Positions 1,390 to 4,080 of a DNA stretch of 32,951 bases are shown here, piece by piece. How positions within the stretch are numbered: the stretch's first letter is position 1; the number at the start of each line of letters is the position of its first letter. This stretch comes from Clostridiales bacterium. Its GTDB lineage: Bacteria > Bacillota > Clostridia > Mahellales > Mahellaceae. The position numbers and the translations under genes were made by a program. Where the stretch lies: NCBI GenBank assembly GCA_030156435.1, contig JASGMM010000019.1, forward strand, positions 1 to 32,951. Direction: 5' to 3'. Under the pieces are notes generated by a model. It worked only from the letters and a program-made list of their open reading frames with translations, searched no databases and was not told the origin of the DNA.

Positions 1390-1432
1390 GATACATAAAG
1401 GATTATTTCGTTTGTAACCACTTTTATGTATA
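1390..1432 (+). terminator. Possible weak terminator hairpin after the VIT1-like gene
   Basis: ATACATAAAGG and CCACTTTTATGTAT can pair as a long imperfect stem just after the stop codon. There is no proper U-tract after it, so its role as a terminator is uncertain. Confidence 0.3.
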
Positions 1433-1471
1433 TGATTCGAAGCATATTTATGATATAATCTTAGCCATAAA

Positions 1472-1542
1472 GACCTCCTTTGATTATTTTTTTACAAATT
1501 TTGCTCTTGACGAAAGGATGAATAAAGGCTATACTATATACT
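1472..1542 (+). repeat. 71-bp direct repeat, left copy (contains a promoter)
   Basis: Bases 1472-1542 are identical, 71 of 71, to 3655-3725 on the far side of the insertion sequence. The repeat contains TTGACG (1507-1512), a 17-base spacer and TATACT (1530-1535), a near-consensus housekeeping promoter pointing right. Its end touches the left terminus of the IS exactly. It is most simply a long target-site duplication. Confidence 0.9.
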
Positions 1543-3654
1543 CCCGTTTTCGACAGTTGCAAGAGAATATGACATATGGAATCCGCTATTTTTAGCGGAT
1601 TCTAAGACTTTTTTAGCTCTATAAAAATGTTGTATGGGAACTCTATTTGGTAATTTTTTTGATTATTTTATTCAAGTCCTTCGGAGCATGGTTTTTGTTA
1701 TCCAGACGCATGCCGTATATGCTGTTTAAAGCAGTACACACCTCGCTTTTTGTGTATGTTGCCATATAGTACATACCATTCATATCTGCAACATTCATGT
1801 TCTGCAGCGTTGTCAGAATATTTTCGGTAGTATAATGCTTGCCGTATTGATCCAGCTTGTTCTCTAATAACCGGTAAATCAATAAAGCAGTATAGCAAAT
1901 CATAAAGTGTGCTATTATCCTACTCTGATTCCTGTGATAAATCGGTCTGGCACGGAAGTTGGTTTTTAATACCCGAAAACAATCTTCAATCTTGCAGCGC
2001 CTTGAATTGATTTCTAATATTGATTTTGCGCTATCTTCAAGATTTGTTGCTACGGCATAGTACCCGTCATATTTTTCTTCCCTTTCGATAGCGGCCTGGT
2101 CGAGCTTGTAATAATCAGAAGCCTTTTCACCATTCTTTCCCACTGATATCCTAGTTATGAAACGGGTTACATCATGCGGCCCTTTTTTCACATCCTCCAC
2201 AGCCTTATGCTCGATGATGTCTTTAGCTCTTTCAATCTGTGCATTCCTTATGCTCCGCTGATATTCCATCATTTTTCTGGAAAAGGTAACAATGATGCGC
2301 TGCTTAAGAACCGCTTTAGATTTTACCTTTTTTGTGTTTCCGTTTTTGAATACTCTTTCCTCATACAGGCCAACATCTACCGCACTGTCCACATCTATTA
2401 CCTTGTAAGCTACATCGTTGTACAAAGACAAGTTATCTTTATTGAATCGGTCGAATTCCTTCATATGGCGGATTGTAACAAGGGAATCATCTGAGAGCCT
2501 GCGATACCCAAAATCATTGAATACAGCCTGCTGCAGTGTCTCTGACAGTTTCTTGACGGATTGTGTTACAATGAAAGCCCTTCCACCAAAAGAATTGTAT
2601 TCCCTGATGTTAAGAGAACCAAGCCCAGCATCCGCACAATAGATAAACGGTTTTCCCTTAAACATCTTAGTGATTTTTCTCTCAAGCGGTATAGCGGATT
2701 TTTGCTCATTATCAGAACCAGGATTAATGCACATTGAGATGGGAATCCCGTTACCATCCATGAAAAGCCCCATCTGCACAAGAGGGCTGGGCTGATGCTG
2801 CTTTGAAGGTCCATACTTGCGAAATCCTTTCAGTATCTCACCCGTTACCTCATCTACAAAATCGTCGTCTTCTTGCTCGGTTTCAAAATAATAGTTTGTA
2901 CAATCAAAATAACATACAGAGGTGTTCCTGGGCATGATATTTTCACTGTTTAAATAAAGATGCTCCAGATAACTATCATAATTATCTTCCAATATGTCCA
3001 TAAAGCGTAATATATGCTGATACTCAAAAGATGGCTGCTCAAAATATGTATCCAGCTTATCGAATGTTCCCCATTTAGACTTAGGATCTAATATCCTGGC
3101 AAAGGTCAGAAACCTATTTATATCATTGCAGCTAAACGTGGCCTTGCTATCCATCTGAACATCTTTAAAGAAATCCGGTATCTTTAGGTCCTGATAGATT
3201 TTCTGCAGAACAAAATAACCGATATTCAAGAGGGTTGACTTGGAGGCAACATAATTGGTAGCTGATAACTTCTCATCAAAATCGATCTTTATATTTAATT
3301 CAGCTTTGTTGCTTTTGTAAGCCTCATTATACTTGCGTACCTCTTGCTTGGCATAAGCAAGAGGATCAGGGGAAATTGCTAATAGCTCAGAATGCTTGCC
3401 AATTCTTTTGACATTCCTGGTTGATGTCTTCTTGCCATTGCGGAATCCCATCTGGATAAAATATGTAGGGTCCTTGGATTTTCTATCATAGTATAATTTC
3501 ATGCGTATGCCATCCTCTCTATATATTCTATTATATCACGGATATATAAAACATACAACACCATACAACAAAAAATTCAAAAAATTTTGACAAGAAAACA
3601 TGATAAATTCAGCTTTTGTAAGGATTTTATTCATCTACAACTGTCGAACTCCCG
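1543..3654 (-). mobile_element. IS1634-family (IS4-group) insertion sequence, apparently complete
   Basis: The element is 2112 bp if bounded by the 71-bp repeats. Its ends align as inverted repeats: TTCGACAGTTG at 1549-1559 and its complement at 3638-3648, each six bases in from the proposed termini, both of which begin with C on their own strand. It holds one intact transposase on the minus strand. IS1634, the founding member of the family, is known for unusually long and variable target duplications, which fits a 71-bp repeat here. An alternative boundary, with a 6-bp duplication CTCCCG (1541-1546 and 3649-3654), is possible if the target already held a tandem 75-bp repeat. Confidence 0.85.
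1643..3502 (-). CDS. DDE transposase, IS1634 type
   Basis: Full-length transposase of 619 residues that would catalyse cut-and-paste or copy movement of the surrounding element. Candidate catalytic residues sit in the expected contexts: D200 in VCYFDCTNYYFE, D291 in FIYCADAGLGS, and E506 in RRCKIEDCFRVLK, the last with the Y-(2)-R-(3)-E-(6)-K-like spacing of the IS4 superfamily. The N-terminus (KLYYDRKSKDPTYFIQMGF) and the ILEINSRRCKIEDCFRVLKT block are typical of IS1634/IS1549 relatives. The frame is unbroken, so the copy could be active. A purine-rich site (AGAGAGGATGG on the coding strand) lies upstream of the ATG. Its ends lie about 100 and 150 bases from the IS termini. No accessory gene is present. 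Confidence 0.9.
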   Translation of the reverse strand: MKLYYDRKSKDPTYFIQMGFRNGKKTSTRNVKRIGKHSELLAISPDPLAYAKQEVRKYNEAYKSNKAELNIKIDFDEKLSATNYVASKSTLLNIGYFVLQKIYQDLKIPDFFKDVQMDSKATFSCNDINRFLTFARILDPKSKWGTFDKLDTYFEQPSFEYQHILRFMDILEDNYDSYLEHLYLNSENIMPRNTSVCYFDCTNYYFETEQEDDDFVDEVTGEILKGFRKYGPSKQHQPSPLVQMGLFMDGNGIPISMCINPGSDNEQKSAIPLERKITKMFKGKPFIYCADAGLGSLNIREYNSFGGRAFIVTQSVKKLSETLQQAVFNDFGYRRLSDDSLVTIRHMKEFDRFNKDNLSLYNDVAYKVIDVDSAVDVGLYEERVFKNGNTKKVKSKAVLKQRIIVTFSRKMMEYQRSIRNAQIERAKDIIEHKAVEDVKKGPHDVTRFITRISVGKNGEKASDYYKLDQAAIEREEKYDGYYAVATNLEDSAKSILEINSRRCKIEDCFRVLKTNFRARPIYHRNQSRIIAHFMICYTALLIYRLLENKLDQYGKHYTTENILTTLQNMNVADMNGMYYMATYTKSEVCTALNSIYGMRLDNKNHAPKDLNKIIKKITK

Positions 3655-3725
3655 GACCTCCTTTGATTATTTTTTTACAAATTTTGCTCTTGACGAAAGG
3701 ATGAATAAAGGCTATACTATATACT
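3655..3725 (+). repeat. 71-bp direct repeat, right copy (holds the tRNA promoter)
   Basis: Identical to 1472-1542. This copy keeps its natural downstream context: the tRNA-Arg-like gene starts eight bases after the repeat ends. Confidence 0.9.
3690..3718 (+). promoter_or_regulatory. Sigma-A promoter of the tRNA-Arg/tRNA-Thr unit
   Basis: TTGACG at 3690-3695, a 17-base spacer and TATACT at 3713-3718. Transcription would start about 3725, just before the tRNA at 3733, which is the usual arrangement for tRNA genes. A second TATACT at 3720-3725 could act as an alternative -10. Confidence 0.8.
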
Positions 3726-3732
3726 GTGATGG

Positions 3733-3808
3733 GCACCCGTAGCCTAATTGGATAGAGCGTTAGATTACGGACCAAGAGGCTAGGAGTTCGAATCCATCCA
3801 GGAGCACC
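3733..3808 (+). tRNA. tRNA-Arg(ACG)-like gene, degenerate, probably a pseudo-tRNA
   Basis: The sequence follows bacterial tRNA-Arg closely at the 5' end (GCACCCGTAGC, AATTGGATAGAGCG) and has a 7-base anticodon loop TTACGGA, giving anticodon ACG, and a TTCGAAT T-loop. However, stems are broken: in the acceptor, GCACCCG faces CAGGAGC with two mismatches; the D-stem GCCT/GAGC has one mismatch and one wobble; the anticodon stem TTAGA/CCAAG has two mismatches; the T-stem AGGAG/CCATC has three. The 3' end is ACC followed by G, with no full CCA. It sits behind a strong intact promoter. A normal tRNA would not have mismatches in all four stems, so it is either decayed or specialised. Confidence 0.6.
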
Positions 3809-3861
3809 GCGGATTATCTTTGTATTAATGGGTACTACAAATAATTTATTAAGGAGTATAA

Positions 3862-3937
3862 GCTGGCATAGCTCAATCGGCAGAGCAGCTGATTTGTAAT
3901 CAGCAGGTTAAGGGTTCGAGTCCCTTCGCCAGCTCCA
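3862..3937 (+). tRNA. tRNA-Thr(TGT)
   Basis: Acceptor GCTGGCA pairs with CGCCAGC except the seventh pair (A-C). The D-stem GCTC/GAGC, anticodon stem GCTGA/TCAGC with loop TTTGTAA (anticodon TGT), and T-stem AAGGG/CCCTT with loop TTCGAGT are all perfect. The CCA end is encoded at 3935-3937. It lies 53 bases after the tRNA-Arg-like gene and is probably co-transcribed with it. Confidence 0.95.
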
Positions 3938-3954
3938 TATTTTAGCAGTTTGCA

Positions 3955-3985
3955 GGGCTTGGGATGGTTTCCCAAGCCTATTTTA
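3955..3985 (+). terminator. Hairpin terminator after tRNA-Thr
   Basis: GGGCTTGGG (3955-3963) pairs with CCCAAGCCT (3971-3979) and is followed by ATTTT. The U-tract is short but the stem is strong and the location fits the end of the tRNA unit. From here to the pyr promoter at 4081 I see nothing else. Confidence 0.6.
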
Positions 3986-4080
3986 GTGTTTGAAACGTGC
4001 TTGAGTTTTGAATAGGTATTTAATCGTGCCTTGATGCATAAAAATGGTTACAAACGGAAATTATTCATAAAAATTCTCTA

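Follow-up and report, generated by a model that had tools for sequence, protein, structure and literature searches.

Within the window, the 32,951-nucleotide stretch of contig JASGMM010000019.1 analysed here, an insertion sequence lies between two identical copies of a 71-bp sequence. The question raised by this locus is how such a long repeat arose and what it contains. The bases at 1472-1542 and 3655-3725 agree at 71 of 71 positions, and the 52 repeated 20-mers of the window all fall within this pair, with none elsewhere. Additionally, TTCGACAGTTG at 1549-1559 recurs in inverted orientation at 3638-3648, six bases inside each end of the interval 1543-3654. Both the 71-bp identity at the element ends and the symmetric inverted repeats had been reported in a preliminary description, and both were borne out when the window was rechecked. 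The element and its immediate flanks comprise the following features.

1472..1542, no strand assigned: target duplication, left copy; a whole promoter that reads rightward and now points into the element
1543..3654, minus strand: IS1634-family insertion sequence of 2112 bp; this exact interval is gap-free in a congener's copy (98%)
1543..1559, plus strand: element end 3ʹ of the transposase stop, CCCGTTTTCGACAGTTG; its counterpart adjoins -10 boxes in relatives
1643..3502, minus strand: transposase ORF, 619 aa; NF033559 IS1634; Pfam DDE_Tnp_1
3638..3654, minus strand: element end 5ʹ of the transposase start, CGGGAGTTCGACAGTTG (read from outside to inside); joined at a variable upstream point
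3655..3725, no strand assigned: target duplication, right copy; promoter immediately 5ʹ of the tRNA unit

The 619-aa transposase scores 368.1 bits against the NCBIfam IS1634 model NF033559 (cut-off 100), and its Pfam domain is DDE_Tnp_1. The element ends CCCGTTTT and CGGGAGTT fit the C-----YT pattern of the IS1634 family in the table that forms part of the available text of PMC2266710. According to the same partial text, members typically measure 1500-2000 bp, slightly less than the 2112 bp found here, and generate direct repeats of 5-6 bp, a range outside which the 71-bp repeat falls. IS1549 and IS1634, with long and variable direct repeats of 8-514 bp, are stated exceptions to this rule (PMC2266710, available text), and family membership is therefore independent of repeat length. 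The window element resembles these two, found in Mycobacterium smegmatis and Mycoplasma mycoides subsp. mycoides, respectively, in having an IS1634-family transposase and long, variable repeats. With more typical members such as ISGka5, which duplicates 6 bp (PMC8024623, available text), it has the family and the C-----YT ends in common, whereas their duplications measure 5-6 bp rather than 71 bp. The available text of PMC2266710 notes that how IS1634 and IS1549 come to make long duplications of variable length had not been addressed by any mechanistic model.

Because CTCCCG can be read at both ends of the element in the window, the locus could also be taken for an ordinary 6-bp duplication into a pre-existing 75-bp tandem repeat, the alternative offered in the preliminary description. 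However, a congener (G002, a single contig of 3,135,972 bases) carries an independent copy of the element at a different place, identical at 2075 of 2112 bases without gaps, and the two copies have the same ends, including CTCCCG/CCCG. These bases thus belong to the element, and the 6-bp reading falls. Moreover, a single copy is present at the loci paralogous to that of the window and at the empty sites of a relative, which leaves a 6-bp duplication with almost no credibility. A flanking repeat was looked for at the congener's 98% copy and none was found. An assembly artefact, which might be suspected in a source genome that is a 104-contig draft, is exceedingly improbable, since the same architecture is seen across dozens of independently assembled genomes, of which several consist of a single contig.

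What has been duplicated is a promoter; this is the main point, and the earlier reader overlooked it. As judged from its sequence, the 71-bp repeat contains TTGACG-17-TATACT located 5ʹ of a tRNA unit, with the following arrangement.

3690..3695 (second copy 1507-1512), plus strand: -35 box TTGACG
3713..3718 (copy 1530-1535), plus strand: -10 box TATACT, at 17-bp spacing
3720-3725 and 1537-1542, plus strand: second TATACT; its left copy directly adjoins the element
3733..3808, plus strand: decayed tRNA-Arg(ACG)-like gene, uncalled by ARAGORN
3862..3937, plus strand: tRNA-Thr (TGT), the first intact gene 3ʹ of the retained promoter copy

Between the -35 box and the TATACT that touches the element there are 24 bp, and the TATACT at 17-bp spacing sits 7 bp further upstream. 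Each paralogous Arg-Thr unit (contigs C24 and C95, and G002) has a single promoter of this kind, and on C24 and C95 ARAGORN does call the tRNA-Arg(ACG) gene. The right-hand repeat copy continues into sequence homologous to these paralogous tRNA loci. The first 33 bases of the repeat, sought elsewhere in the genome with up to three mismatches, were not found beyond the two copies. The single-copy paralogous loci and the restriction of these 33 bases to the repeat itself support the long target duplication that had been proposed, and the 71-bp repeat is thereby supported as a duplication made by the IS1634-family element.

The two congeners examined offered no orthologous empty site for the window insertion, since the whole tRNA-IS segment (approximately 1400-4065) is missing from both. 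For a relative on a phage contig (L094), whose element is 65% identical to that of the window, orthologous empty sites prove the long-duplication mode. Its 143-bp site occurs as one copy, identical at 143 of 143 bases, in three phage contigs; the 26-mers at its junctions are 143 bases apart in these three contigs and 2379 apart in the occupied contig, which has two copies. The empty-site comparison suggested in the preliminary description, run on this relative, thus came out in favor of a long duplication. In Ligilactobacillus salivarius plasmids, the element lies directly after the TATAAT of the ermC leader promoter and is flanked by a 14-bp repeat, GCTTGTGCTATAAT (2583-2596 and 4654-4667 of L178, plasmid pBNS11-37kb), and the single-copy, empty ermC leader site is present in the L. 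salivarius plasmid NZ_CP137610.1. A 121-bp repeat in the family of G082 (L253) has a single copy, 78% identical, in G056, a member of another genus, together with the right flank and 13 bases of the left flank. Empty-site searches in the genera of G336 and G043 yielded nothing decisive, and no unoccupied relative of the Carnobacterium plasmid was found in the plasmid collection.

Long repeats were surveyed in relatives by scanning genome contigs with a four-sequence alignment, which gave at least 80 loci. Of these, 75 were analysed, with the truncated matches L125, L132, L135, L144, and L148 left out, and four loci were added: the window, a 38% identical copy on contig C52, one G043 copy, and the viral contig L094. 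Repeats of at least 20 bp (range 30-409) flank 42 of the 79 loci, that is, 38 of the 75 among the matches listed and the four added. As a control for chance, the longest exact shared stretch in 223 mismatched pairs of left and right flanks was 13 bases. Among the matches listed, 48 loci have at least 1 kb on both sides; a repeat of at least 20 bp is present in 31 of them and absent from 17. Long duplications, which the preliminary description had called rare, are therefore usual in this lineage.

Replication was sought in a class-wide search of 391 genomes, 27 of which had a match. Closer examination of nine genomes provided 40 stretches: four without an intact ORF, six without a repeat, and 30 with a repeat of at least 14 bp, of which 27 were kept after removal of three duplicates of discovery loci. 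This set is not wholly independent of the first, because L246 and L247 were taken from a genome that had also supplied L096. Over both sets, the 69 repeats measure 15-582 bp, with a median of 91; the 15-bp repeat of L259 may be due to chance. Within one genome, near-identical elements (2091/2091 to 2091/2093) are flanked by repeats of 73, 58, 156, and 228 bp, so that each insertion sets its own repeat length, irrespective of the element sequence. One element thus has long, variable direct repeats of the IS1634/IS1549 type, with near-identical copies spanning 58-228 bp. The inverted repeat places the element end no more than 2 nt from the start of the direct repeat in 34 of 39 discovery copies and 14 of 20 replication copies; owing to the disagreements, several boundaries are ambiguous, among them those of L226, L227, L230, L256, L259, L260, and L263.

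While the opposite end of the repeat varies, one element end occupies a fixed position at the -10 box. This is evident from 62 junctions kept from the 80 loci (seven had a weak end match, and the others either lacked an end or extended less than 60 bases past it). Reading outward from the element end 3ʹ of the transposase gene, the 62 junctions, among the matches listed, have A in 60, T in 53, T in 39, A in 36, T in 52, and A in 49. The resulting ATTATA is the reverse complement of TATAAT, and the element end adjoins the downstream edge of the -10 box. The complement of the -35 box peaks at offset 23 from the junction, equivalent to a 17-bp spacing. A -35 box (at least 4/6) at a spacing of 16-18 bp is present at 37% of junctions, among the matches listed, compared with a shuffle mean of 15%. 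Furthermore, 34 same-class junctions among the matches listed were compared with 2077 background -10-like sites: a -35 box accompanies 44% of the former and 14% of the latter (Fisher 3.7e-5), and TGn accompanies 44% and 8%, respectively (2e-8).

The replication junctions comprised 26 copies with repeats of at least 28 bp, 20 of which have an end definable by the inverted repeat. ATTATA (at least 5/6) is found at 15 of these 20 defined ends and at none of the 26 variable ends; for a -35 box, the corresponding counts are 14 of 20 and 3 of 26. The -10/-35 signal is absent from the variable repeat end in these 26 copies. At the variable end, the repeat shows a weak preference for C as its last base before the GGG of the element (34 of 67 copies). 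In the favored reading, one element end is joined at the -10 box and the other somewhere further upstream, so that insertion would duplicate the promoter; relatives in many other bacteria and a phage likewise duplicate a promoter on landing.

Copies without a repeat mostly have the same -10 junction, with a poor fit in L122, L128, and L151. In 13 of the 17 repeat-less copies, those with a definable right end, the left flank (1.1-4 kb) was probed and no repeat was found; nor was any repeat exceeding 1 kb found within the flank examined. Such copies could reflect a second transfer elsewhere, as a one-sided deletion or inversion by the same reaction, or later loss. Intact ends and an ATTATA-like right junction were observed in the repeat-less copies L095, L105, L118, L121, L139, L141, L171, L174, and L041.

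Genes are oriented accordingly around the insertions. On the downstream side of the promoter, 43 of 63 copies have, within 350 bp, an ORF start with a Shine-Dalgarno-like motif; on the other side, 12 of 63 do. In the same 63 copies, a tRNA on the strand of the promoter is located downstream of the retained promoter in five, one of which is the window, and on the other side in none. The gene downstream of the insertion probably keeps working, as far as its intact promoter can indicate.

It is therefore very likely that this IS1634-family element inserts into promoters and duplicates the -10 box, the -35 box, and upstream DNA, with the downstream gene retaining a full promoter. Against this reading stand the repeat-less copies and the congener's 98% copy, the 24-bp distance between the -35 box and the element-adjoining TATACT in the window, and the Mycoplasmopsis copies described below. 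In the proposed mechanism, the element end 3ʹ of the transposase gene would attach where a sigma-A -10 box ends on its downstream side, and, by the usual logic of strand transfer, the first transfer would take place on the template strand near -7/-6. The second transfer would link the other element end to the opposite strand further upstream, at a distance that varies between insertions (71 bp here, usually 30-300 bp). Repair of this long gap would copy everything between the two points, including the -10 box, the -35 box, and upstream DNA. The downstream gene would retain a full promoter copy, in the window the right-hand copy before the tRNA unit, and transcription from the second promoter copy would enter the element and run antisense to the transposase gene. 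The natural cue may be the melted bubble or the bound polymerase.

What the transposase recognizes is a separate matter, and the chances are about even that this lineage reads promoters as such, probably through the melted -10 box or bound RNA polymerase, with the long duplication enabling it to land without silencing the gene. The main rival, a tentative one, holds that the transposase reads only a TATAAT-like AT-rich hexamer that is common in promoters, the long duplication being independent of that recognition. No other signal at the junctions is nearly as strong as the hexamer, and deeper relatives with a weaker promoter signal still meet TTATA-like sequence. However, background hexamers of this class from these flanks do not show the enrichment of -35 boxes and TGn, and genes sit on the downstream side of the promoter. 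Selection alone, acting on random insertions that survive where the duplication leaves the promoter intact, would account for the core promoter left before a gene in most copies and for the 68 of 69 repeats that measure at least 30 bp. It is nonetheless an improbable explanation: a position at the -10 edge precise to a single base is not expected from survival, and copies without any repeat are likewise at -10 boxes.

Promoter choice does not extend to the whole family. Five 50-kb Mycoplasmopsis stretches were considered, three of which were analysed and two of which listed no IS1634 transposase. In Mycoplasmopsis gallopavonis (L181, L324-L326), the six copies tested of a distantly related IS1634-type element have long repeats and mostly no -10 box at the fixed end, although the repeat boundaries are ambiguous in two or three of the six. 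Promoter choice is therefore not family-wide, and long duplication and promoter choice are separable. No long repeat was found in the Geobacillus and Rhodococcus copies examined. Promoter choice looks younger or more narrowly distributed than long repeats. The tree does not conflict with this order, but it was built with FastTree only, its deep branches are unsure, and two long rows meet in it at uncertain places.

In contrast to what is seen in the clade of the window element, the available text of PMC2266710 mentions no promoter preference for IS1634 or IS1549. No description of promoter targeting by IS1634 elements was found in the accessible part of the open-licence literature, and the original IS1549 and IS1634 papers might contain one. 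In yeast, the retrotransposons Ty3 and Tf1 aim their insertion at transcription start regions and spare genes; these eukaryotic elements use an integrase, make short duplications, and leave the promoter uncopied. The clade of the window element thus resembles them in start-region insertion but differs in copying the promoter within a long duplication.

The combination of a fixed -10 end and a variable upstream end provides a concrete, testable geometry for the unexplained duplications made by IS1634 and IS1549. Should the transposase indeed read promoters, this clade would be a bacterial counterpart of the start-site-targeting retrotransposons, and its insertions would mark promoters in genomes. 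Such reading would also explain how these elements spread with little harm, and they would be expected often before tRNA genes or strongly expressed genes that are left on.

The tRNA-Arg/tRNA-Thr cassette with the insertion sequence inside is itself an insertion (1401-4064) absent from both congeners, its outer segment (1406..4059, no strand assigned) being bounded by inverted-repeat arms at 1406-1431 and 4034-4059. The tRNA genes seem to ride between IS-type ends. When this outer repeat family was traced to other genomic copies, no transposase was identified. The outer inverted repeats are 26 nt long and 88% identical, with CATAAA on both sides, and the same family also occurs on contigs C37 and C95 and in G002.
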